From contig JALVVR010000066.1 of assembly GCA_027023305.1 (NCBI GenBank), positions 1 through 64,000 of the forward strand: a DNA stretch of 64,000 bases, given 5' to 3'. Within the stretch, counting starts at the first letter, position 1. Every line of letters starts with the position of its first letter. The notes below the pieces were generated by a model. That model was not told the DNA's origin and did no database searches. It saw only the letters and a list, made by a program, of their open reading frames with translations. Shown here one piece after another: positions 1,583 to 63,817 of this stretch. The position numbers were made by a program, and so were the translations under genes. This stretch comes from Campylobacterales bacterium. GTDB lineage: Bacteria > Campylobacterota > Campylobacteria > Campylobacterales > QNZT01.

Positions 1583-3031
1583 TTAATCTATAATATAACA
1601 AGCCCCTAAGGACTCTTTTTGGTATATCGTACTTTTTACGATATTTCTTGAGGTTTTAAGCCTTAGTTTTAAAAATTTACCAATATCTCTATCTAAAAAC
1701 GAATCTATCTTTATAAGAGTATTTTCCAACTTCGCCCTACTTCTAACTATACCTGCACTCTCCCACATCAGTTTTCTTAGCTCATTTTTTATCTCTTTAT
1801 CTCCACTTTTTATTAAAGTCTCCTCTTTTAAATCAAACTCTTTTATTTCAAAATCAAATTTCTCTTTTTTTATATTTTCAACTGCTCTTTTTGAAAAAAC
1901 AAGCCCTTCCAAAAGTGAATTTGAAGCCAAACGATTTGCACCATGCACTCTAGTATTTGCCACTTCTCCTACTGCATATAAGTTTTTCATGCCACTTACT
2001 CTTCCATCTAAATCTGTCTTTATACCACCCATAGCATAGTGAAATGCAGGAGATATAGGTACTCTATCCTCAGGCAGGTTATAACCCAAATCTTTTAAGT
2101 TAAAGTAAATAGTTGGAAATCTCTTTTTAAAGAACTCTTTATCAAACATACTTAAATCCAAATAAACCTCTTTACCACTCTTCTTTTTATGCTCAAATAT
2201 TGCCCTACTAACCAAACTCCTAGGACTAAGCTCTCCTCTATCATCATACTCAAACAAAAATCTCTTTCCATCTGCATCAACGATATGAGCTCCCTCACCT
2301 CTGAGTGCCTCAGTCAAAAGCTGTTTTCTAGCTCCCAAAGAGTGTATAAAAACAGTAGGATGAAACTGCATCATCTGCATATCTCTAAGTTCCAACCCTT
2401 TTTCTAAACATATCCCTTGAAGCTCTCCACTAATAGTTTTAGAATTTGTATGATACTCATAGATACTACCAACTCCACCACTAGCTATCACAACTGCTTT
2501 TGCATAGTAGTTTCTAAGCTCATTATTATGCCAAACTCTAACTCCATGACATATATCATCCTCTATTAAAAGCTCTGTTACAGTTGAGTTATAAAGTAAT
2601 CCAGATTTATTTTCACTCATCAAAAACCTATGCACTTCTCGTCCAGTTGCATCTCCTCCCGAGTGAATAATCCTGTTTCTACTATGAGCTGCCTCTTTTG
2701 TATATAAAATTTCTCCTTTTTCATTTCTATCAAAAGGACAACCTCTATCTATCAAATCTCTAACAGCTCTCAACCCATCTTCACATAAAACTCTAACAGC
2801 TTTTCTATCGCAAAGTCCAGCTCCAGCACTAATAGTATCTTCAATATGAGAGTTTATATCACTCTCATCAACTGGCACTGCTATACCACCTTGTGCATAA
2901 AAAGTATTACAATCCCAAGAGTTTTCTTTACAAACTACTAAAACTTTTTTATCTCTTAAACTATTTGCTACATTTAACCCAGCTATTCCCGAGCCTATAA
3001 CTATCACATCATATATATTTCTATCTATCAT
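1583..3031 (-). CDS. nadB: L-aspartate oxidase (NAD biosynthesis)
   Basis: A flavoprotein oxidising L-aspartate to iminoaspartate, the first step of de novo NAD synthesis; NadA would use the product. The N-terminus carries the FAD-binding dinucleotide motif GSGIAGLNVA (residues 13-22). It is followed by the flavin-contacting AQGGIAVP and by HSGGDATGREV. A second signature, HGANRLASNSLLEG, lies in the C-terminal half and contains the conserved HxxxR-type active-site region of the succinate dehydrogenase/fumarate reductase superfamily. At 482 residues it is slightly shorter than E. coli NadB (about 540), mainly in the C-terminal helical domain. No Fe-S or cytochrome partner genes adjoin it, which argues against fumarate reductase. 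The start ATG at 3029-3031 is divergent from the next plus-strand gene. Confidence 0.93.
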   Translation of the reverse strand: MIDRNIYDVIVIGSGIAGLNVANSLRDKKVLVVCKENSWDCNTFYAQGGIAVPVDESDINSHIEDTISAGAGLCDRKAVRVLCEDGLRAVRDLIDRGCPFDRNEKGEILYTKEAAHSRNRIIHSGGDATGREVHRFLMSENKSGLLYNSTVTELLIEDDICHGVRVWHNNELRNYYAKAVVIASGGVGSIYEYHTNSKTISGELQGICLEKGLELRDMQMMQFHPTVFIHSLGARKQLLTEALRGEGAHIVDADGKRFLFEYDDRGELSPRSLVSRAIFEHKKKSGKEVYLDLSMFDKEFFKKRFPTIYFNLKDLGYNLPEDRVPISPAFHYAMGGIKTDLDGRVSGMKNLYAVGEVANTRVHGANRLASNSLLEGLVFSKRAVENIKKEKFDFEIKEFDLKEETLIKSGDKEIKNELRKLMWESAGIVRSRAKLENTLIKIDSFLDRDIGKFLKLRLKTSRNIVKSTIYQKESLGACYIID

Positions 3032-3119
3032 GAACTACTACTTTTGTCTTAACATAAACAGGAGGGGTCTTATATCCACAACCAACAAAGTTAAATATTA
3101 CTACTGCTATAATAACTAC

Positions 3120-3557
3120 ATGAAGACCGTTAATCAAATTATTTCTCATATTATTTCAAAACCTCAATTTAAAAAGATTACACAAAAAAAGTGTTTTGAT
3201 AAAGTAGTTAAACTTTTACCACCACATTTAAAAAATGCCGTCCTATTTACCTACACTAAAAATCAAACCCTATTTTTTGTTTTAAACCATCCAGGACTTA
3301 AGATGGAGTTTCATTATAAGGTTAATTTTCTAAAGACTCTATTAAAACAAGTTAAAACTATTGACCCCTCTTGTCATGATATGCAGGATATTTCAGATAT
3401 AAAATTCTTTGTTTCAAACAAACCAAGAGAAAAAAAGAAAATCCAAAAAAAACTTTTTTACAAAGAACTCTCAAATGCCAACTTTAAAATCCTAACCAAA
3501 AACAAAAAACTACAAAAACTTTTTTTACAAATAAAAGATGAAATCTCTTCTAACTAA
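3120..3557 (+). CDS. DciA-like (DUF721) protein
   Basis: A 145-residue basic protein read from the ATG at 3120; the open frame extends upstream to 3030, but that part reads as non-coding leader. The N-terminal half (TVNQIISHI, then KVVKLLPPHLKNAVLFTYTKNQTLFFVLNHPGLKMEF) resembles the DUF721 fold of DciA, which helps load the replicative helicase DnaB in bacteria lacking DnaC. The lysine-rich tail fits nucleic-acid contact. Its last 20 bases overlap the start of uvrC, so the two are translationally coupled. The family call rests on pattern recognition only. Helicase loading is inferred from the family. Confidence 0.55.
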   Translation: MKTVNQIISHIISKPQFKKITQKKCFDKVVKLLPPHLKNAVLFTYTKNQTLFFVLNHPGLKMEFHYKVNFLKTLLKQVKTIDPSCHDMQDISDIKFFVSNKPREKKKIQKKLFYKELSNANFKILTKNKKLQKLFLQIKDEISSN

Positions 3558-5328
3558 ACTAAAAAACCTCCCAACCAAACCTGGGATTTACCAATACTTC
3601 GATAAAAACGGAAGACTCCTATATATAGGAAAAGCAAAAGTTTTAAAAAACAGAGTAAAAAGCTACTTTAACTTTACTCCTACACTCTCCCCCTCTTCAA
3701 ATCTAAGCCCAAGAATCTATAAAATGATAACAGAGGTTGAAAATTTAGAGTATATAGTAGTAGATAGTGAACAAGATGCCCTAATCTTAGAAAACTCACT
3801 TATAAAACAACTAAAACCAAAGTATAACATCCTTCTTAGAGATGATAAAACTTATCCTTATATCTATATAGATTTAAACCAAAAGTATCCAAGATTTGAG
3901 ATAACAAGAAGAGTTATAAAAGGCAAAAATATAAAATACTTTGGTCCATTTGTAAGTGGTGCAAAAGATATCCTCGACTCCATATATGAAATCTTCCCTT
4001 TAGTTCAAAAAAAAAGTTGTCTGAGAGAGGGGAAAAAGTGCCTTTTCTTTCAGATAAAAAGATGTCTCGCTCCTTGTGAAAATCTTGTAAGTGAGAAGGA
4101 GTATAAAAAAATAGTAGATGAAGCAACAAAATATATACTTAACAAACAAAAACTAACTTCAAAACTTGAAGAAAAGATGCTTTACTACTCAGAGGAGTTA
4201 CTCTTTGAAGAGGCTTCAACCCTTAGAGATAGAATAGTAAAGATAAAAAACTCTATGCAACTAAACACTATTGATTTGGCTAAACTAGAGGATTTTGATA
4301 TATTTGGAGTATTAACTCAGTCAAACAAAGCTGTAGGAGTTAAAATCTTTGTCAGAGATGGAAAAGTAGTCTCAAGTGACCATCATATTTTCAAAAGTGA
4401 GTTTGGATTTGACCATGATGAACTCTACAAAACTATGCTTTTAAACCACTATCAAAAAGAGTTACCATTTGTTCCAAAAGAGATACTTATAGCATCAAAG
4501 TTTAATCAAATAGAAGAAATTGAAGTGCTTATAGAAAAGAAGTATAATAAAAAAACAATTATTAAAGTCCCAAAAATTGGAGATAAAAAAAGGTTAACCA
4601 CTCTCGCACTTACAAATGCAAAAGAGATTTTACGATTAAATTCTAGCAAAGATGACAATACCCTTAAAGAGATAAAAGAACTATTGGGACTAGAACAAAT
4701 CCCATATACACTTGAAGGATATGATAACTCGCACATGATAGGAAGTGCAAAAGTAGGAAGTTTGGTTTACTGGGAAGAAAAGTTTATAAAACAAAACTAT
4801 CGCCACTACAACTTAACTGCACTTAATGAATATGATCAAATGAAAGAGATGCTAACAAGAAGACTAGAAGATTTAGAAAAAAATCCTCTTCCAAATCTTT
4901 GGGTTATAGATGGAGGAGAAACTCTTTGGAAATTAGCACAAAAATTAGTTAAACAAAAAAAGCTTTTTGTCGATATAGTTGCAATTGCTAAAGAAAAAAG
5001 AGATAGCAAGTCAATGAGGGCAAAAGGAAGAGCTAAAGATATAATCTTTTCCAAAGATGGAGAGTTTAAGCTCTCAACTGAGGATAAAAGGCTACACTTT
5101 ATACAAAACATAAGAGATGAAGCCCATAGATTTGCTATCACTTTTTTCAAAAAGCAAAAGTTAAAAGAGGATAAAAAACTATCTCTTTTAAACAAAAAAG
5201 GTATCGGTGAAGCAACTGTAAAGAAACTCATCGATTACTTTGGGACATTTGAAAATATTAAAAATGCTTCTTTAAAAGAACTTGAAAAAGTTATCGGTAA
5301 AAAAGGAGCTTTAAAACTTAAGGAGTAA
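3538..5328 (+). CDS. uvrC: UvrABC system protein C (excinuclease)
   Basis: A 596-residue nuclease that makes both incisions around bulky DNA lesions with UvrA and UvrB. Domains in order: GIY-YIG nuclease (KPGIYQYF...LLYIGKAK, residues 13-35), a cysteine cluster CLREGKKCLFFQIKRCLAPC near 160-180 resembling the family's Fe-S ligand cysteines, the UVR helical pair (EEKMLYYSEELLFEEASTLRDRI, about 210-235), the RNase H-like second nuclease (EGYDNSHMIGS and VIDGGE), and a C-terminal helix-hairpin-helix (NKKGIGEATVKKLIDYFG). All signatures are present and length is normal. Its start is embedded in the preceding DciA-like gene. A strong AAGGAG at its own 3' end serves the next gene. Confidence 0.96.
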   Translation: MKSLLTKLKNLPTKPGIYQYFDKNGRLLYIGKAKVLKNRVKSYFNFTPTLSPSSNLSPRIYKMITEVENLEYIVVDSEQDALILENSLIKQLKPKYNILLRDDKTYPYIYIDLNQKYPRFEITRRVIKGKNIKYFGPFVSGAKDILDSIYEIFPLVQKKSCLREGKKCLFFQIKRCLAPCENLVSEKEYKKIVDEATKYILNKQKLTSKLEEKMLYYSEELLFEEASTLRDRIVKIKNSMQLNTIDLAKLEDFDIFGVLTQSNKAVGVKIFVRDGKVVSSDHHIFKSEFGFDHDELYKTMLLNHYQKELPFVPKEILIASKFNQIEEIEVLIEKKYNKKTIIKVPKIGDKKRLTTLALTNAKEILRLNSSKDDNTLKEIKELLGLEQIPYTLEGYDNSHMIGSAKVGSLVYWEEKFIKQNYRHYNLTALNEYDQMKEMLTRRLEDLEKNPLPNLWVIDGGETLWKLAQKLVKQKKLFVDIVAIAKEKRDSKSMRAKGRAKDIIFSKDGEFKLSTEDKRLHFIQNIRDEAHRFAITFFKKQKLKEDKKLSLLNKKGIGEATVKKLIDYFGTFENIKNASLKELEKVIGKKGALKLKE

Positions 5329-5331
5329 GAG

Positions 5332-6834
5332 TTGATACTATATGATGAAAATTATAAATTTTTAGGAGCAAGTAACAAAGAGTTAAATAGATTTGGTTTT
5401 AGTGATATTACAGAGTTTGATAGCTATCACAAAGATTTTGCAGAGCTTTTTGTAAAAGATGATGATTATATATATGATTTTGAAAATTTCTCATGGATTG
5501 ATTTTATACTGTATGGTGGTGCAAACAAAGATACAGCTATAATTCAAAATAAAGCAAAAGAGTATAAAAAAGTAAAAATCAAAATAATAACGGTAGAACT
5601 TACTAACAATTTTTGTGATATTGAAAAACTTTATCGTGTTAAATTAGAAGATTTAGGAGAACTCTCAAAAGAAGAAGAGACTAAAATAACAAATACAAAA
5701 ATCAACCTAAGCTCAATGCTTACAAAATCCAAAGATTTAAAAGAAGATAAAAAACAAAATGATTTAGATATAAATCTAAGCTTCATGGAGAATGAAGATA
5801 TAAAAGATGATGATAAAAGCAGTATAAACTCTATCTCATTAGACTTTTTAAAGAAAGAAAAAACAAAAGAGGAAAAGCCAAAAGCTCCACTTATTAGTAA
5901 AAAAGAAGATGAAATAAAAGAAACAAATAGTAACATAGTTTTAGATTTTTTTAACTCAAAAGTAGAAGATGAAACTCCTGTAACTTCTATATCAAAAAAA
6001 GAAGAACCCTTAAAAGAAAAGGAGAGTAAATCTGAATTTAACTTAAACTTTTTAGGTAAGAAAGAAGATAACCAAGACAAAAAAGTAGTTGAAGAAGAGC
6101 CAAAAAAATCTACTTTTAATCTTAACTTTTTAAATTCTAATGAAGATCAAAACATAAGCCAACCTCAAGAGGAAAAACCAAAAGTAGAAACTCCAACTCC
6201 AAAAAAAGAAGAAGTTCCATCTCTAAATCTAAACTTCCTTAAAACAGAAGAAGTAAGTCAACCTAAAGAGGAGATTAAACCAGAAGTTAAAGAAGAACAA
6301 AAGCCAGAGATAAATCTTAACTTCTTAAAAACAGAGGAAGAAAGTAAGCCCAAAAAAGAAATTCAACAAGAGATCAAAGAGCAATCCAAACCAGAGATAA
6401 ATCTTAACTTTCTAAAAAGTAAAGATACTCATAAAGAGAAAACAAAGGAGTTATCAAAAGAGGAAAAATCAACTATCATAGATCAAATAAAAAATGATAT
6501 TGAAGAGATAGATGATAAAGTAGAAAATTCTTTATTTTTAAAAAATATCGACTTACCAATAGAGGAGAAAAAAGATATACTAAATGACTTTATAGATGAC
6601 TCAATGCAAAGTTTATCTCTCGCAAAAAAGTTTATCTCTCATGATGATTTTGATAGTACAAAGTTTATGATAAAGAAAGTTCTATCATCTTCAAATCTAC
6701 TTGAGTTAGACACAGTTTCACAAAACTTAAATCTACTAGCCAAAAGTATAGATAGTAAAAACAAAGAGGATATTGAAGGAAATATCCAAAAAAGTATAAA
6801 CTCTATTAATAATCTTAAAAAAATTAAGATATAA
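5332..6834 (+). CDS. PAS-like / linear-motif-repeat / pseudo-HPt protein of unknown function
   Basis: A 500-residue acidic, Lys/Glu-rich protein starting at TTG, with AAGGAG overlapping the uvrC stop. I do not recognise it as a named family. Three regions can be seen. Residues 1-110 look like a small PAS-like sensor (LGASNKELNRFGFSDITEF). Residues 120-365 are low-complexity linker carrying about nine copies of a short motif, (I/F/L)-N-L-N-F-L or close variants, at about 124, 147, 168, 202, 236, 262, 298, 327 and 356. Residues 380-500 are helical and resemble a histidine-phosphotransfer bundle (LPIEEKKDILNDFIDDSMQSL, then KKVLSSSNLLELDTVSQNLNLL), but the phospho-accepting His is replaced by Lys. 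It sits 9 bp upstream of a hybrid histidine kinase, so a scaffold or modulator for that kinase is a reasonable inference. Confidence 0.6.
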   Translation: MILYDENYKFLGASNKELNRFGFSDITEFDSYHKDFAELFVKDDDYIYDFENFSWIDFILYGGANKDTAIIQNKAKEYKKVKIKIITVELTNNFCDIEKLYRVKLEDLGELSKEEETKITNTKINLSSMLTKSKDLKEDKKQNDLDINLSFMENEDIKDDDKSSINSISLDFLKKEKTKEEKPKAPLISKKEDEIKETNSNIVLDFFNSKVEDETPVTSISKKEEPLKEKESKSEFNLNFLGKKEDNQDKKVVEEEPKKSTFNLNFLNSNEDQNISQPQEEKPKVETPTPKKEEVPSLNLNFLKTEEVSQPKEEIKPEVKEEQKPEINLNFLKTEEESKPKKEIQQEIKEQSKPEINLNFLKSKDTHKEKTKELSKEEKSTIIDQIKNDIEEIDDKVENSLFLKNIDLPIEEKKDILNDFIDDSMQSLSLAKKFISHDDFDSTKFMIKKVLSSSNLLELDTVSQNLNLLAKSIDSKNKEDIEGNIQKSINSINNLKKIKI

Positions 6835-6843
6835 GAGAAATCC

Positions 6844-9800
6844 ATGAAGATAAAGTCAAACTTAAATCTCATAACTTTCATCCCAGTGATGATAGTTATG
6901 CTTTTATCTATATACATATTTCGACTAAGTTTCAATAATTATCAACACTCAAAAACTGATTTATCCAACTTAAAGAAAATAGAGAAAATAAAAGAGTTTA
7001 TGCTAGATATTTTTAAAGAAAGAAAGTATGCAGTACAAAGCCTAACTAGTAACTCAAATGAAACTATATATAACTACAAAAAAGCTGCAACCAAAACAAA
7101 TAAAGCAGTAAACAACTTAATCACAATCTACAATAAAGATAAAAAAAATAGTATTATCTTTAAACTCATAAAAGATATAAAAACAATAGTAAATCAAAGA
7201 AAAGAGATAGAGGAACATAAGCTTTCATATAAAACAATCTTTGCTAATTATGATATACTAAATAGTGATATTCTATCATATATCAACTATCTTAAAAATA
7301 AAATAAATACAAAAACAAATGCAAACAGTTTAAATGATGCTCTAATACTACTAAAATCTGTATCTGATGAAAGGGACTTTATCTCCAATATATACACAAA
7401 TAGTGAAGATATAGAAAACTTATATATAATAAAACTTTTTAAAAATAGCAATATTACACAAACACTTAGTATGGTTGATAAAAAAGTACAAAAACTACTA
7501 TCAAAATCACTTGATACTAAAGAGTTTATCAACATAGTTAAAAAGACAAATACAATAAAACAAGAGCTACTAACAAAGGGTTATATAATATCTGCCACAC
7601 AAAAGGAGTGGATAGATTTTGAAGATAAAAAACTTTTTCTTCTTAGTCAAAGTATAGATAGAATTTCTAAAAACATAAATAATGAGTTAAAAAAGAGTTT
7701 AAATTATAAACTTTTAAAGCTAGTAATATCTCTATTTTTGATACTTTTATCTCTATTTTTACTTTATAAATATTTTAGATTTAAAAATGAACTACTTGAT
7801 AACTCAAACCTAAAACTGTTGTTAAAAAAAGTTTTAAACCTAAGTAATCTTGATAAAACTGTTGATTTAAGTACAACAAGTGGAGTAAAAAATTCATATA
7901 AAATCATAGATGACTCTTTAGACAAAATATCAATAGATAGACAAAAAGCTGAAAATGACAATGCTTCTAAATCTATCTTCTTAGCCAACATGTCTCATGA
8001 GATAAGAACACCTATTAACGGTATAGTAGGTTTTACAGATATCTTAAAAAAATCAAATCTTAATAAAACACAAAAAGAGTATGTTGATATCATTTCAAAA
8101 AATACAGATAATTTACTAGAAATCATTAACAATATTTTAGACCTTTCAAAAATAGAGAGTAAAAAAATAGAAGTTGATTCTATCATGTTCTCTCCTATTG
8201 AAGAGTTTGAAAACTCGGTAGAACTATTTTTAGCAAAAGCCTCTAAAAAGAAGATAAATCTATCACTAAACCTTCTTCCTAACTTTGAAAATTATCTCCT
8301 TGGTGATCCACTAAAGATAAAAGAAGTTTTACTAAACCTGATATCAAATTCATTAAAATTCACTCCAAAAGGTGGACAAATAGATGTTAGTATAAAAAAG
8401 CTACCTAGCAAAAGCTCAAAAGAAGAGTTAGTTTACTTTGAAGTAAAAGATAATGGTATTGGGATGAGTAAAGATGAGCTAAGTGATATATTTGATGCTT
8501 TTTCTCAAGCTGATTCTACTATTACAAGGAAGTATGGTGGCACTGGACTTGGACTTACTATATCGTCAAGCTATGTGACACTGATGGGTGGAGAGTTGGA
8601 AGTAGAGAGTAAAAAAGATAGAGGAACAAAGTTTTTCTTTACCCTAAGCTTTAAAAAATCCCAACCATTAAAAACAACCAAATATAAAAACTCTTTTAAC
8701 ATTATAAAAGCACTAATCATAAGTGATAATGAAACTAAAGAGTTATCAAACTACTTAAAAGAGTATATTTCATACCTTATATCATCTACCTCTTTAGTAA
8801 ATAAAGAAGATATATCAAGTAATAAATCTATGTTTGAAGAGTCAAATCTAATAGTAGTACCACAAAAAGTTTTTGAGGAAAATGACTTCTCACATCTAAA
8901 TAAAACAGATAAGAAACTGCTTATAATCCAAGATAGTCAATTTTATCAAGAGCAAAATACTCTTCCTTCAAATACTTTCACTATAACTGAGCCTATTGGA
9001 TTTTTTAAAGTAGTTGAAGTTTTATCATCTTTTAATCCAACTACTGCAAAAAACACTCATGAAAATAAAACAATAAAAGAGAGTAACAAAAAATTTAAAA
9101 TCCTAATAGCAGAAGATAATGATGTAAATCTAAAACTCCTTGAAGAGTTTTTTAACCAATACTCAAACATAACTATAAAAAAAGCTATAAATGGTGAAGA
9201 AGCAGTGAAGCTTTTCTTAAAAGAGAGTTTTGATATGATTTTAATGGATATAGCAATGCCTCTGTTAGATGGTATGGAAGCTACAAAAAAAATCATAGAG
9301 TATGAAAACATCAACAACACTCCTCACACACCTATAATAGCTCTAACTGCAAATGCACTTAAAGGCGATAAAGAGAAGTATTTAAGTACAGGTATGGATG
9401 AGTATATAACTAAACCTGTAAAAGAGGACTCTCTAATCACAATGTTAAAGAAGTTTTCAATCACACTAAATCAAAAAGAACTTATTTCAAATAAAGAAAA
9501 TAAAAAAGAAAATTTAGAACAAAAACAACTTCTTCTATACAAAAAAAGTGAAGTTGAAACAAAGATATTTCAAAAAGTTCTATCACAATACTACTCTAAA
9601 ATAGATACAGTAAACTCTTCAAAAGAGTTTTATACTAATTTAGAGAGATTTAACTATCAAGCTATTTTATTAGACAAAGAGATTAGTGATTTGGATTTTG
9701 AAAGTTTAAATAATATAAAGAAAGAAGCTCCAAATACATCTCTAATATTATTTAGAAACTTTGAAACTATTATATCAAACAAATTAAGAACAATATTTGA

Positions 9801-9873
9801 TGAAACTATCATAAACAGTTCAGATGTAGCATATCTAAAGACTATTTTAAAAAGTTATGTAAAAGAGGATTAA
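6844..9873 (+). CDS. Membrane hybrid histidine kinase with receiver domains
   Basis: A 1009-residue sensor kinase. Membrane helices lie near residues 9-27 and 290-309 and enclose a roughly 260-residue helical periplasmic sensor of NIT-like character. The kinase core follows: HisKA with ANMSHEIRTPINGI (His385), then HATPase with LISNSLKFTPKGG (N box), DNGIGM (G1) and GGTGLGL (G2). Three receiver-like segments come next. The first (about 625-735) is degenerate. The second is canonical (ILIAEDND, LMDIAMP with Asp802, ITKP). The third (about 895-1005) is divergent but keeps a candidate Asp944 (LLDKEIS). There is no HPt in the protein and no DNA-binding output. It is translated just after the motif-repeat protein. 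A long hairpin overlaps its stop. Confidence 0.88.
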   Translation: MKIKSNLNLITFIPVMIVMLLSIYIFRLSFNNYQHSKTDLSNLKKIEKIKEFMLDIFKERKYAVQSLTSNSNETIYNYKKAATKTNKAVNNLITIYNKDKKNSIIFKLIKDIKTIVNQRKEIEEHKLSYKTIFANYDILNSDILSYINYLKNKINTKTNANSLNDALILLKSVSDERDFISNIYTNSEDIENLYIIKLFKNSNITQTLSMVDKKVQKLLSKSLDTKEFINIVKKTNTIKQELLTKGYIISATQKEWIDFEDKKLFLLSQSIDRISKNINNELKKSLNYKLLKLVISLFLILLSLFLLYKYFRFKNELLDNSNLKLLLKKVLNLSNLDKTVDLSTTSGVKNSYKIIDDSLDKISIDRQKAENDNASKSIFLANMSHEIRTPINGIVGFTDILKKSNLNKTQKEYVDIISKNTDNLLEIINNILDLSKIESKKIEVDSIMFSPIEEFENSVELFLAKASKKKINLSLNLLPNFENYLLGDPLKIKEVLLNLISNSLKFTPKGGQIDVSIKKLPSKSSKEELVYFEVKDNGIGMSKDELSDIFDAFSQADSTITRKYGGTGLGLTISSSYVTLMGGELEVESKKDRGTKFFFTLSFKKSQPLKTTKYKNSFNIIKALIISDNETKELSNYLKEYISYLISSTSLVNKEDISSNKSMFEESNLIVVPQKVFEENDFSHLNKTDKKLLIIQDSQFYQEQNTLPSNTFTITEPIGFFKVVEVLSSFNPTTAKNTHENKTIKESNKKFKILIAEDNDVNLKLLEEFFNQYSNITIKKAINGEEAVKLFLKESFDMILMDIAMPLLDGMEATKKIIEYENINNTPHTPIIALTANALKGDKEKYLSTGMDEYITKPVKEDSLITMLKKFSITLNQKELISNKENKKENLEQKQLLLYKKSEVETKIFQKVLSQYYSKIDTVNSSKEFYTNLERFNYQAILLDKEISDLDFESLNNIKKEAPNTSLILFRNFETIISNKLRTIFDETIINSSDVAYLKTILKSYVKED

Positions 9874-58476: not shown

Positions 58477-58508
58477 AAGTGATAAGAAAATTATATTGGA
58501 GTGAAACA

Positions 58509-59453
58509 ATGTCAGTTAAAAGTAATGATATTCAAGCAAATATCGACTATATGACTAAATCTCATCTTAGAAATGTTATGCAACTAGCAGTCTTTTATAC
58601 AGCTCATGATGATATATATGCTATCAATATCTCTAAAATACAAGGCTTTTTGATAAAAGAGGAGTTAGAGATACTAAAAGCCCCAAGTAATAACCCTTAT
58701 GTAGAAGGACTAATAGATCTTAGAGGTGAAATAATATATATAGTAAACTTTGATAAGTGGTTAGGTTATGATACAAACATAGATGAATATAAAATAGTCA
58801 TAGTCTGCAACTATAACCAAAAAAAGGTGGGCATACTAGTAAAAGATATTATAAAGATAGAGGAAAAAGCTAGTGATGAGTTAAAGATGCCTTCATCAAA
58901 AGATCCAAAAATCTCATATGTAACAGATATAGCAATAAATAAAAATACAAATAAAATGTGTATTGTCTTTGATGCAGAGAGACTTTTATATGACACAAAC
59001 AGTGGTGATAGTTCTCCAAAATCAACTATATATGATATAGGCTCATTTAACATAAATGAGAAGATAACTTCAACTAAAAAAGTTTTAGTAGCTGAAGATA
59101 GTGGGATAGTTATAGAAAAGTTAAATGAATTTTTTAAAAATATCGGTATAGATTATGAGATATATGAAAATGGTCAACTACTTATAGACCGACTAGATAC
59201 TCTTTCTCCAAAAGATATAGGATTAGTTATAACAGATATTGAGATGCCTATTAAAAATGGTTATCAAGTTATAAAATATATAAAAAGTGAATCTGACTAC
59301 TTTAATGTACCAGTAATATCTCTAACAAGTATGACAAACCAAGGTGTAAAAGACAAGATTTTAGAGTTAGGTGCTATAGATTTGGTGAACAAATCTGATT
59401 TGAACAAATTAAACTCATATATAAAAGAGATATTAGAAGGAGTCGCATCATGA
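58509..59453 (+). CDS. cheV: Chemotaxis coupling protein CheV
   Basis: A 314-residue CheW-receiver fusion. The N-terminal CheW domain (about 20-165) has [12 protein letters not shown] and [21 protein letters not shown]. The receiver (about 190-312) has [22 protein letters not shown] with the phospho-Asp, and SLTSM. The usual Lys is present in LVNKSD. It couples receptors to CheA and probably acts in adaptation or as a phosphate sink. The start chosen is ATG 58509-58511 with GGAG seven bases upstream; an in-frame upstream frame overlaps the promoter. Its TGA overlaps the mcp ATG. Confidence 0.94.
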
Positions 59454-61156
59454 AAAATGAAAAAATAACAACAATCAAAAATACAAGTTTTAAACTAGGA
59501 GTTTTTATATTTGTATCATTTTTGGTACTTCAAGTTTTTGTAGGATATAGGATGTATGAAGCAAATGAAAATGCAGCAAAACACTTTAGTGATTTAGAAA
59601 ATCTATCTAAAGTAAAATCGCTAGCACTTTTACTAAACAACTTTTCAAAAGAACCAACAGATACAACTCTTATGCAAATAAAAGATATTTCTAAAGATAT
59701 TTCTAAAGATATTTCTAAAGATATTTCTACTCTAGCATATAAATATCAAAACAATCTCCCATATACACAAACCATATCTCATTTAACAAAAAATGTAATA
59801 TCTAAAAAGAATTATTTCTCTTCTAAAACAAAAGATTTAGATAAACTAGTTGACTCAAAAACTGATAATATCATAATCTTTGCTTTTGTTCTGTTAGTAA
59901 ATATAGCTATAAATTTACTTCTAACACTATTTACAAACAAAATAGTAAGAAACTTAGAAAGTTTACAAAATGGAGTTAGCTCTTTCTTTGACTTTATAAA
60001 CAGAAAAAGTAAAGACTCAAAACAAATAGTCTCAGAAGGAAATGATGAGTTCAAACTAATAGCAGGTATGATAAATGAAAATGTATCACAAATCAAAGAG
60101 GATATAAAAACAGATTCAAAAGCTGTTGAAGAGGTAGCAAAAGTTTCATCATTGGTAGCAAAAGGTGATTTTTCAGCAAGACTTAAAGCTCATGCAATAA
60201 ACCCTGAGATTTGTAAACTAAAAACAAATCTAAATGACTTTTTAGACAATATGCAACAAACTGTAAATGAGATAACAAAAGTTGTAAAAGATTATCAAAA
60301 CCACAACTTTAAATCAAATATCAAACAAGAGTTGAGTGGTGAGCTTAAAGAGTTAAGTAGTGGTATCAACTCTTTAGGAAAAGTACTTGAAGATGCACAA
60401 GATAAAATAAATACAACTCTAAAATCAAAATCAAATATACTAAACACTTCTGCAAAAGAGTTAAATGAGAGTGTAAACAAACTAAAAGAGTATATACAAA
60501 AAAGTACATCAAACTCTAACGAAGTTTCGTCAGAGATGGAAGTGATGTCTAAGATGATAGAAGAAACTGTAAAAAGAGCAAAAGACATGAATGACTACTC
60601 TATAAAAACTGCTAAAAGTGCAAAAGAGGGAGAAAAACTAGCAGATAAAACTCTAGAAGCTATGCATGTGATAAATGAGTCAACTTCTACTATAGATGAA
60701 GCCATAAGTGCTATTGATTCCATAGCATTTCAAACAAATATCCTAAGCCTTAATGCAGCAGTTGAAGCTGCAACTGCAGGAGATGCAGGTAAAGGTTTTG
60801 CAGTAGTTGCACAAGAAGTTAGAAACCTAGCTACAAAATCAGCAGAAGCTGCAAAAAGTATAAAAGAGCTAGTAGAAGAAACTAAAAACAAAGCAGATGA
60901 AGGTATGGAAATCTCTAAAAACATGAAAGAAAACTTTGCAGAGGTAAACCTACAGATTCAAGAGTCATCAAAACTAGTCTCTTCTGTAGCTCTTGAGGCA
61001 TCAACTGAGTTAGAAAAAGTAAAATCAGTAGATAGCCTAATAAAAGAAGTTCAAACTATGTTTATCAAAAACAATAAAATAGCAAATAAAACTGATGATA
61101 TTTCTCAAGAAATTTTACAAATCTCAAATGAGCTTTATGAAGAAGTAAAAGAGTAA
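59450..61156 (+). CDS. Methyl-accepting chemotaxis protein
   Basis: A 568-residue transmembrane receptor. Membrane helices lie near 14-33 and 140-163, bounding a short periplasmic sensor of about 105 residues. That sensor contains a (KDIS)4 repeat at residues 78-93. A HAMP-like and helical region follows (about 165-330), then the signalling hairpin with [51 protein letters not shown] near 420-470. No C-terminal CheR/B pentapeptide is seen. It is translated together with cheV (ATGA overlap) and cheA (14 bp gap), so it is probably the dedicated receptor of this cluster. Ligand unknown. Confidence 0.93.
59681..59728 (+). repeat. Four perfect 12-bp tandem repeats inside the MCP gene
   Basis: AAAGATATTTCT repeated four times without mismatch, each unit encoding Lys-Asp-Ile-Ser in the periplasmic sensor domain. 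Unit gain or loss keeps the frame and changes the sensor by four residues. Confidence 0.95.
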
Positions 61157-61169
61157 AAAAGGGCAAATC

Positions 61170-63380
61170 ATGATTGATACAGAGATAGTTGATTTTTTTA
61201 TGGAGGAAGCTGAAGAGCTTTTTGATGGTATAAACTCAATACTTCTTAAAAATGAAGAAGTAGGAGAGATTTCTAGTGAAGAACTAGACTCTCTTTTTAG
61301 AAACATGCATACTATAAAAGGTGGGGCTGGATCAGTAGGTTTAGTAAATGTATCTAAATTTACCCATCATTTAGAAACTTTTTTAGATGAGATACGGGAA
61401 GGAGAAGTAGAGTTTACTAAAGAGATTATAAACTTTTTTATTGACTCAGTTTCAAAGATACAAGATATCTTAGATAGTGAGTATGATGGAAATATTGATG
61501 AAAGTGAAGTTGACACTATGGTTGAGGAATTAAAGAAAGAGATTGATTCTTTTCATGGAAACAACGATGCAGTAGTAAAGGAAAAGGTTCAAAATGGAGA
61601 AAACCTATCTGCAAATGTAGCTGAATTACTAGACATATTTGAAGATATTTTTAAAATTTTAAATGAAATTGAAACCAGTCAAAGTATAGAAAATATAGCT
61701 ATAGATGAACTTTTTAGATATGTTCATACCCTAAAAGGCTCTTCACAATTTTTATATCTTTCATATTTCCCAACTTATATGCATGATTTAGAAAATATTT
61801 TAGATGATGTAAGAAATGAAAAACTGCCTTATACCATAGAATTAAATACTTTTCTTTTAAATTCACTCTATATAGCTCAAGAGATGATAGATTTAGAACT
61901 AAATGGAAATTTAGAAAAAGAGAAGTTTGAAAGTAAACTAAAATCTCTAAAAGAGGAGATTAAAGAGTTTGAGAATACAAGTGAAGAAAGCTTGGGATTT
62001 GAGATATTTGATGATGAACTTGATATAGATATGCAAGCTTTTGAAATCTTTGATGATGAACCAGTTCAAAAAGAGAATCCAGTTATAGCTACACCTAAAG
62101 AAGTAAAAAAAGAGCAAATTCAAACTCCTAAAAAAGAGAAAAAGGAAGTAAAAAAACCTGTAGAAAAAAGTATAAAAAAAGCAGCATCTTCTAGCTCAAT
62201 AAGAGTAAATCTTGATAAGATAGATACTCTTATGAATAGAGTTGGAGACCTTGTTATAACTAAAAGTATGCTATTTCAATTTGCAGATAACTTAAAAGAA
62301 CATAGTGATATATATAAAAAAATAGTAGAAAGATTAGAAACTCTTGATCGTGATATAAGAGAGCTTCAAGAATCAGTTATGTCAGTTCGTATGGTTCCTA
62401 TGGAAAGTGTATATGCAAGACTTCCTAAAATGGTTAGGGACTTAGCAAAAAAACTTGACAAAAAAGTAAAGTTTGAACACTTTGGAGATAATGTTGAGAT
62501 AGATAAAATGATGGTGGAAGGACTTATGGATCCTCTAACTCATATCATCAGAAACTCACTTGACCATGGTATAGAGACTCCTGATATTAGAAGACAAAAA
62601 GGCAAAAAAGAGGGAGGAACTCTTACTATAACTGCAGCTCAAGAGAGTGGAAATATTATAATAAGCATAAAAGATGATGGAGCAGGTATAGATATAGATA
62701 GAGTTTCACAAAAAGCTCTTGAAAATGGTGTAATAACAGAGGATGAGCTAAATAAGATGAGCTTTGATGATAAAGCTATGCTTATCTTTTCTGCTGGACT
62801 TTCCACTGCAAAAGAGGTTAGTGATGTTTCAGGTCGTGGTGTTGGAATGGATGTAGTTGCAAACAACATTCACTCTCTTGGTGGGAAAATAGATATAAAA
62901 ACTGAACTAGGTCGTGGAACTGAGTTAAAGATAATCCTACCTTTAACACTTGCTATACTAGATGGTTTAAATGTGATGGTCGGAGATAGAAAGTTTATCC
63001 TACCACTTAGCACTATAGTAGAGTCTATAAAACCAAAAGAGTATATGATAAAAAACATAGGTCAAGGGAATCGTGAGCTACTAATGCTAAGAAATGAATT
63101 TATCCCTATTGTAAAACTGTACTCATTTTTTGGAGTTGAAACTAGATGTGAAAACTTAGAAGATGGTATGATCATAATAGTAAAAAGTTCAAATACAAAA
63201 ATAGCACTATATGTAGATGACTTTTTAAACCAAGAGCAAATAGTTGTAAAATCACTAGAAAAAAACTATAAAAAGATAAAAGGAATTGGTGCTGCTACTA
63301 TACGAGGTGATGGAAGTATAGGTCTGATTTTGGATGTCATGAACATCATGGAAAAAAATAAAATAAAAGAGGAGGCATAA
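61170..63380 (+). CDS. cheA: Chemotaxis histidine kinase CheA with two HPt domains
   Basis: A 736-residue kinase. HPt1 has FRNMHTIKGGAG (His47). HPt2 (about 150-265) has FRYVHTLKGSSQF (His186). A Lys/Glu/Pro-rich linker precedes the dimerisation domain (INLDKIDTLMNRVGDLVITKSML-type NLDKIDTLMNRVGDL). The ATPase follows: DPLTHIIRNSLDHGIE, IKDDGAGID, GRGVGMDVV and GRGTELKIILPLTLA. The C-terminal CheW-like P5 (FILPLSTIVESI) ends the protein. There is no receiver at the C-terminus, unlike the CheA-Y fusions of Campylobacter and Helicobacter, and no obvious CheY-binding P2. It lies between mcp and cheW. Confidence 0.95.
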   Translation: MIDTEIVDFFMEEAEELFDGINSILLKNEEVGEISSEELDSLFRNMHTIKGGAGSVGLVNVSKFTHHLETFLDEIREGEVEFTKEIINFFIDSVSKIQDILDSEYDGNIDESEVDTMVEELKKEIDSFHGNNDAVVKEKVQNGENLSANVAELLDIFEDIFKILNEIETSQSIENIAIDELFRYVHTLKGSSQFLYLSYFPTYMHDLENILDDVRNEKLPYTIELNTFLLNSLYIAQEMIDLELNGNLEKEKFESKLKSLKEEIKEFENTSEESLGFEIFDDELDIDMQAFEIFDDEPVQKENPVIATPKEVKKEQIQTPKKEKKEVKKPVEKSIKKAASSSSIRVNLDKIDTLMNRVGDLVITKSMLFQFADNLKEHSDIYKKIVERLETLDRDIRELQESVMSVRMVPMESVYARLPKMVRDLAKKLDKKVKFEHFGDNVEIDKMMVEGLMDPLTHIIRNSLDHGIETPDIRRQKGKKEGGTLTITAAQESGNIIISIKDDGAGIDIDRVSQKALENGVITEDELNKMSFDDKAMLIFSAGLSTAKEVSDVSGRGVGMDVVANNIHSLGGKIDIKTELGRGTELKIILPLTLAILDGLNVMVGDRKFILPLSTIVESIKPKEYMIKNIGQGNRELLMLRNEFIPIVKLYSFFGVETRCENLEDGMIIIVKSSNTKIALYVDDFLNQEQIVVKSLEKNYKKIKGIGAATIRGDGSIGLILDVMNIMEKNKIKEEA

Positions 63381-63817
63381 TGGAACATGTTGTTTTTAAA
63401 CTTATAGATGAAAACTTTGCTATAAGATTAGATCAAATAAAAGAGATACTTGTATATGACCAAATTATAATAACTCCTCTTTTTAATGAAGAGCCTTGGG
63501 TAAAAGGTGTTATAAATCTAAGAGGTGAAGTTATACCTATTTTGGATTTAAGGATAAAATTTAATCAAGAAAATCCAACTTTTGACGATAATACAGTGGC
63601 AATAGTTATAAAAACAGATGAAGATAAACTATTAGGTATCATTATAGATAAGATAGAACAAATTATTCCTATAAAAAAATCACAAGTTTCACAGACTTAT
63701 GATTTAGATATAGGGATAGATCAAAAATATATAAAGAATCTTATAAAACTAGATGACAAAGAGATGATAGTTTTACTTAATATTGACAAAATTTTAAAAA
63801 TAAAACAAATAGCATAA
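63380..63817 (+). CDS. cheW: Chemotaxis coupling protein CheW
   Basis: A 145-residue SH3-like scaffold linking receptor and kinase: FKLIDENFAIRLDQIKEIL, WVKGVINLRGEVIPILDLRIKF (the family's core N-L-R-G-x-V-x-P motif) and ILLNIDKIL-type VLLNIDKIL near the end. It overlaps cheA by one base and precedes cheY by 9 bp. Confidence 0.95.
   Translation: MEHVVFKLIDENFAIRLDQIKEILVYDQIIITPLFNEEPWVKGVINLRGEVIPILDLRIKFNQENPTFDDNTVAIVIKTDEDKLLGIIIDKIEQIIPIKKSQVSQTYDLDIGIDQKYIKNLIKLDDKEMIVLLNIDKILKIKQIA

Follow-up and report, generated by a model that had tools for sequence, protein, structure and literature searches.

What is the role of a protein that is encoded directly ahead of a hybrid histidine kinase, ends in a fold of the HPt type and lacks the phospho-accepting histidine? 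This question is raised by ORF 5332-6834 (plus strand) in a stretch of 64,000 nucleotides from a Campylobacterales bacterium related to the Sulfurospirillum type, the whole of which is referred to here as the window. The deduced protein was not recognized by searches against Pfam, NCBIfam and PDB sequences. It is classed as a variant of the HPt partner of the hybrid kinase, and no description of the operon uvrC-target-kinase was found in the papers searched.

Gene neighbourhood and domain architecture

The target gene starts with a TTG codon approximately 3-4 bp downstream of the uvrC stop codon, and the orthologues align from residue 1 of the deduced protein; nine bases separate its stop codon from the kinase gene (6844-9873). 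The gene order uvrC, (small gene), target, (small gene), kinase, regulator is conserved across the Campylobacterales, including Sulfurospirillum, Sulfurimonas and Hydrogenimonas. Homologues of the target were matched in 80 named loci and in 33 of the 59 searched relatives, and target and kinase are linked in nearly every genome whose contig is long enough. The following features were assigned to the target gene:

5320-5325, plus strand: AAGGAG, ribosome-binding-like, overlapping the end of uvrC
5332-6834, plus strand: PAS-like / motif-repeat linker / pseudo-HPt protein, 500 aa
5332-5661, plus strand: PAS-like N-terminal domain, aa 1-110 (AF2, Foldseek, alignment)
5662-6456, plus strand: disordered Lys/Glu-rich linker, aa 111-375 (pLDDT mostly <50)
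6484-6513, plus strand: conserved helix QIKNDIEEID, aa 385-394 (alignment; inside the AF2 helix 376-395)
6538-6816, plus strand: pseudo-HPt four-helix bundle, aa 403-495 (AF2, Foldseek)
6673-6675, plus strand: Lys448, at the site of the HPt phospho-histidine

Several further genes were noticed at this locus. A 175-aa ORF upstream of uvrC (window 3030-3557) is conserved in position across the family and gave no Pfam or NCBIfam match. A small secreted Sel1/TPR-like protein is encoded between target and kinase in several relatives (L052:7254-7667, L053:6843-7241 and L059:9331-9738) and a single PAS-domain-like protein upstream of the target in two others (L054 and L055), both domain names having been assigned by reading the sequence.

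Residues 1-110 represent the best-conserved part of the target family. The AF2 model of this region in the window protein adopts a PAS topology with a pLDDT of roughly 90 or higher across most of the domain, and a Foldseek search yielded KinA PAS-A as the best PDB match, followed by other PAS/LOV domains (probability 0.99-1.00, E 0.006 and weaker). At the sequence level, the N-terminal domain of the window protein did not match PAS models; PAS_9 was matched in four of 25 members with a best E of only 0.028, and the family profile of the N-terminus distantly matched PAS regions in other proteins (E 1e-8 to 1e-10).

The C-terminus was modelled by AF2 as a four-helix bundle (helices 410-496, pLDDT mostly >94), for which Foldseek returned HPt proteins (3myf, 1wn0 and 7c1i, TMt up to 0.72). 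In this search, KinA PAS-A ranked at the top and several HPt proteins followed, with a probability of 1.00 and with E-values >0.001, each domain being a small share of the query. The window protein itself did not match the Pfam Hpt model (PF01627). Relatives from several loci score above the cut-off of this model (E 5e-14 to 2e-10 for L054-L056 and L059, 2e-5 for L057), and the match fades to E 0.0015-0.02 for two proteins of the window's family; the homology of the C-terminus to HPt domains is therefore independently supported. Since Lys448 takes the place of the histidine, the domain is regarded as a pseudo-HPt and not as a phosphotransfer protein. The lack of the histidine, together with what is established about HPt chemistry, makes it very likely that the window protein carries no phosphate on an HPt histidine.

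The neighbouring kinase comprises the following features:

6844-9873, plus strand: hybrid histidine kinase with NIT-like sensor, DHp, CA and REC1-REC2-REC3
7969-8160, plus strand: DHp with the intact H-box MSHEIRTP
8746-9078, plus strand: REC1, a degenerate, poorly conserved receiver with a receiver fold in the model
9100-9447, plus strand: REC2, a true receiver with the ED, MDIAMP, T and K residues
9538-9861, plus strand: REC3, a pseudo-receiver with KK in place of the acidic pair; candidate docking site

Domain searches of the window kinase matched HisKA, HATPase and one true receiver and returned no HPt; the NIT-like sensor scored below the cut-off in the window kinase and above it in relatives. 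Three receiver folds are seen in the AlphaFold model, for which ShkA (6qrj, E 2.3e-22) is the top PDB match. The original prediction, made from the sequence of the window, had described a PAS-like N-terminus, an HPt-like end with Lys in place of His, and a kinase with three receiver-like segments and no HPt that should be linked to the target in other genomes. All of these elements were recovered by the models, searches and genome comparisons, with the refinement that REC2 is a true receiver flanked by the degenerate REC1 and REC3.

Family history of the phosphorelay components

In Sulfurimonas- and Hydrogenimonas-type genomes, the target protein contains a pair of HPt domains, of which exactly one has the His and the other a non-His residue (33 of 33 proteins), and a gene for a CheY-like regulator is located downstream of the kinase gene. 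By homology, this pair represents a standard phosphorelay. The His-bearing domain is the first in Sulfurimonas-type and the second in Hydrogenimonas-type proteins (L082-L143, e.g. L095:10001-11917 and L122:10001-11707), and two proteins with three HPt domains have two His and one Lys each. Sulfurospirillum-type proteins have one HPt domain, with a non-His residue at the site in 14 of 16, and the regulator is retained. Two proteins are exceptions to the dead single HPt: L099:10001-10948 (LIHQVLG) and L105:3910-4881 (LLHQLLG) carry His in a single HPt domain and form long branches beside the Sulfurospirillum-type proteins.

The window's family represents a single clade with full support, in which the window kinase lies on a long branch. 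In all 15 HPt ends of this family, the His is replaced by I, V or K, and in one genus (g3; L036, L070 and L076) the HPt domain is absent and the PAS-like domain and the motifs described below are kept. An orthologue of the regulator was detected at 98-255 bits in 13 genomes of other families and in none of 22 genomes of the window's family, the best matches there (<=60 bits) being generic receivers. Matches to Hpt in the window's genome, an assembly 99.97% complete with 5% contamination, were restricted to two large ORFs, one being CheA at 61170-63380 and the other being similar in size. Accordingly, of the parts of a phosphorelay, the kinase is present with its H-box intact and a true receiver, and the HPt histidine and the terminal regulator are absent. 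With neither a His-bearing HPt partner nor a regulator at hand, REC2 has no obvious destination for its phosphate. As the tree is unrooted, the order of these losses is a deduction.

A chemotaxis cluster was noticed in the region 58479-63817 of the window; it encodes a CheV-like protein (CheW + receiver), an MCP and the CheA protein, which has two Hpt matches.

The conservation of the kinase domains differs between the groups. Within the window's family, REC3 sequences share a mean pairwise identity of 66.6%, versus 41.7% and 35.9% for the other groups, whereas the value for REC1 is 35.1 versus 56.9 and 41.7 and that for REC2 68.9 versus 78.1 and 76.9; for DHp, CA and the sensor, the window's family is level with or between the other two groups. 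The shift in identity therefore suggests that REC3 came under a new constraint in the clade in which the motif arose, although its conservation could also have a different cause, dimerisation for example. The idea that REC3 is the former regulator fused to the kinase was rejected, since relatives with a separate regulator have REC3 too. A KKSxVETKIF-like start of REC3 (window 9538-9861) is conserved even in distant relatives.

The motif-repeat linker

The linker between the PAS-like domain and the pseudo-HPt is charged, disordered and of low complexity, with alternating hydrophobic residues (F-x-L-x-F-L). It contains nine motifs of the form [FIL]-x-L-[DN]-F-L, four of them loose and five reading NLNFL:

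5701-5718, plus strand: motif 1, INLSSM (loose), aa 124
5770-5787, plus strand: motif 2, INLSFM (loose), aa 147
5833-5850, plus strand: motif 3, ISLDFL, aa 168
5935-5952, plus strand: motif 4, IVLDFF, aa 202
6037-6054, plus strand: motif 5, FNLNFL, aa 236
6115-6132, plus strand: motif 6, FNLNFL, aa 262
6223-6240, plus strand: motif 7, LNLNFL, aa 298
6310-6327, plus strand: motif 8, INLNFL, aa 327
6397-6414, plus strand: motif 9, INLNFL, aa 356
6224-6418, plus strand: tandem repeat, 87-bp unit, 2.2 copies, spanning motifs 7-9
Motif peptides: KPEINLNFLKTEEE; from other genera, FKLDFLKKD and PLSFLKQEE

The regular expression detected seven copies in the window linker, where shuffled linkers lead one to expect 0.03. 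Defining a motif on the very protein in which it is counted carries a risk of circularity; this was answered by a profile built solely from other genera, which still found six copies in the window linker versus 0.10 expected. Across the window's family, 42 copies were counted versus 0.62 expected (21 members), whereas the 60 other proteins contained three versus 0.8 expected, two of these three residing in L057. The leave-one-genus-out profile scan showed that the motif recurs in several genera, and in genus g3 the variant L[SD]FLK occurs in 5, 1 and 3 copies versus about 0.01 expected. Although absent from the regular expression, K at position +6 and E/D at position +8 occur in 74% and 77% of the motif copies, respectively. 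Neighbouring proteins, 64,721 aa in total, contained no copy. The other genes of the window's genome yielded only three isolated, degenerate DNA matches to the motif, and a second repeat protein of this kind was not found there. With a conserved motif repeated within a disordered region, the linker shows the pattern that characterizes SLiM scaffolds.

The five NLNFL copies differ in synonymous codons and keep the peptide. Part of the likeness among the last three copies is due to the 87-bp tandem duplication, so that these do not represent three independent gains, and the nine motifs were not counted as copies fully independent of one another. The originally predicted set of about nine copies, the first four looser and the last five nearly identical, was found at the nine sites at which it had been placed. 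Their spacing of 21-36 aa is only roughly even, and the expectation that the motif would be shared by orthologues held for its presence but not for its copy number, which ranges from 0 to 9 by strict counting; one family member (L077) has no motif by either the strict regular expression or the profile.

A proposed docking protein for the kinase and alternative explanations

The gain of the motif, the loss of the regulator and the conservation of REC3 fall on one branch and are therefore regarded as one event and not as independent correlations. Proceeding from the gene linkage, the predicted folds, the losses of the His and of the regulator, the gain of the motif and the shift in REC3 constraint, all of them evident from sequence comparison, we infer motif binding, REC3 as its candidate site and the output. 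We tentatively favour the explanation that a phosphorelay partner became a multivalent protein that docks on its kinase and can no longer be phosphorylated. In most Campylobacterales, the route would lead, by homology, from the kinase His via the REC2 Asp and the HPt His of the target to the small CheY-like regulator. In the window's family, this path would have been dismantled, while the protein persisted, PAS-like domain included, and acquired the motif in its linker. The pseudo-HPt would still contact a kinase receiver and accept no phosphate, and the motif copies could hold several kinase molecules, with REC3 as the candidate site, or switch REC3 between states. Input through the PAS domain would thereby alter the clustering or the activity of the kinase.

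The original suggestion of a multivalent scaffold that recruits the adjacent kinase is favoured by the shift in REC3 constraint but not by structural modelling. In an AF2 fusion of aa 318-500 (motifs 8-9 and the pseudo-HPt) with the whole kinase, the motifs were undocked and disordered with a pLDDT of about 25, which is weak negative evidence in view of the few paired rows and the inclusion of two of the nine motifs. The rows of the alignment of target plus kinase were translated through the intergenic stop with table 6. In the AF2 model of the window protein, the motifs were likewise undocked on its own domains, and no strand was predicted.

The undocked motifs of the fusion model would also fit a scaffold whose motifs bind a non-kinase protein, such as an enzyme or a polar or cytoskeletal protein, the kinase-like end merely tethering it to the sensor. 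The presence of PAS-like domain and motifs in genus g3 without the pseudo-HPt points in the same direction, but the conservation of the kinase REC3 rose in the very clade concerned and the linkage to the kinase is tight wherever the contig is long enough, and we regard this explanation as possible but somewhat doubtful. Association of the motifs with each other, by a weak beta-zipper or as hydrophobic stickers, is distinctly unlikely. Such condensation could concentrate the pseudo-HPt and the kinase, and both the alternating hydrophobic residues in a charged disordered linker and the free variation in copy number are sticker-like; however, stickers would not need side chains as specific as D/N at +3, K at +6 and E/D at +8, and AF2 predicts no strand.

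Quite improbable is a role of the pseudo-HPt as an antagonist, in which it would act as a REC2 decoy like plant AHP6 with the motifs being secondary. A His-less HPt is indeed kept in most of the window's family and invariably accompanies the His-bearing one in the two-HPt relatives, but genus g3 dropped it and kept the rest, and little is left to antagonise because the regulator and all evident relay HPts are gone. The 87-bp duplication, the low-complexity linker and the long branch of the window kinase could also reflect the decay of a dying phosphorelay, its linker expanding by slippage without function. This explanation is very improbable in view of the motif identity kept despite differing synonymous codons and flanks, the occurrence of the same motif across several genera, the frames that are open throughout and the strong conservation of REC3 and the PAS-like domain.

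In AHP6, the phospho-acceptor His is replaced. This protein is a plant pseudo-HPt inhibitor of cytokinin signalling (PMC3572949) and resembles the window protein as a His-less HPt fold in a hybrid-kinase pathway; it differs in having neither a PAS domain nor motif repeats and in acting where true HPts and regulators are present. The Caulobacter ShkA-ShpA-TacA system, in which the kinase ShkA is gated through a pseudo-receiver, likewise has a pseudo-receiver ahead of the true receiver and a separate HPt protein for the kinase (PMC7010744). By comparison, the window kinase adds the C-terminal REC3, its HPt partner lacks the His and has a PAS-like domain and motif repeats, and the regulator is absent. 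Among bacterial Hpt domains, about 0.9% (90 of 10,312) are His-less, and bacterial pseudo-receivers can work via protein contacts; a recent review calls their mode of action a mystery and bacterial pseudo-HPts hardly studied (PMC12632262). Compared with these bacterial domains, the loss of the His is family-wide here and tied to the loss of the regulator and the gain of the motif. Scaffolds of the CsoS2 type (PMC11365436, PMC11481516) work in a similar manner through disorder, repeated short motifs and weak multivalent binding, whereas no sequence relation to the window protein was seen.

Docking of the motif on the pseudo-receiver, by which a pseudo-HPt protein with up to nine motifs would cluster kinases in a phosphate-free assembly, appears unlikely; if true, it would constitute a docking code from motif to pseudo-receiver that is hitherto undescribed in two-component signalling. 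At a single conserved gene position, the locus offers a natural series of graded states, consisting of a live/dead pair of two HPt domains, a single dead HPt with regulator, and a dead HPt with motif repeats and no regulator. Since Sulfurospirillum and Sulfurimonas are cultured, the earlier steps of this series are testable, and the conserved live/dead HPt pair merits study in its own right.
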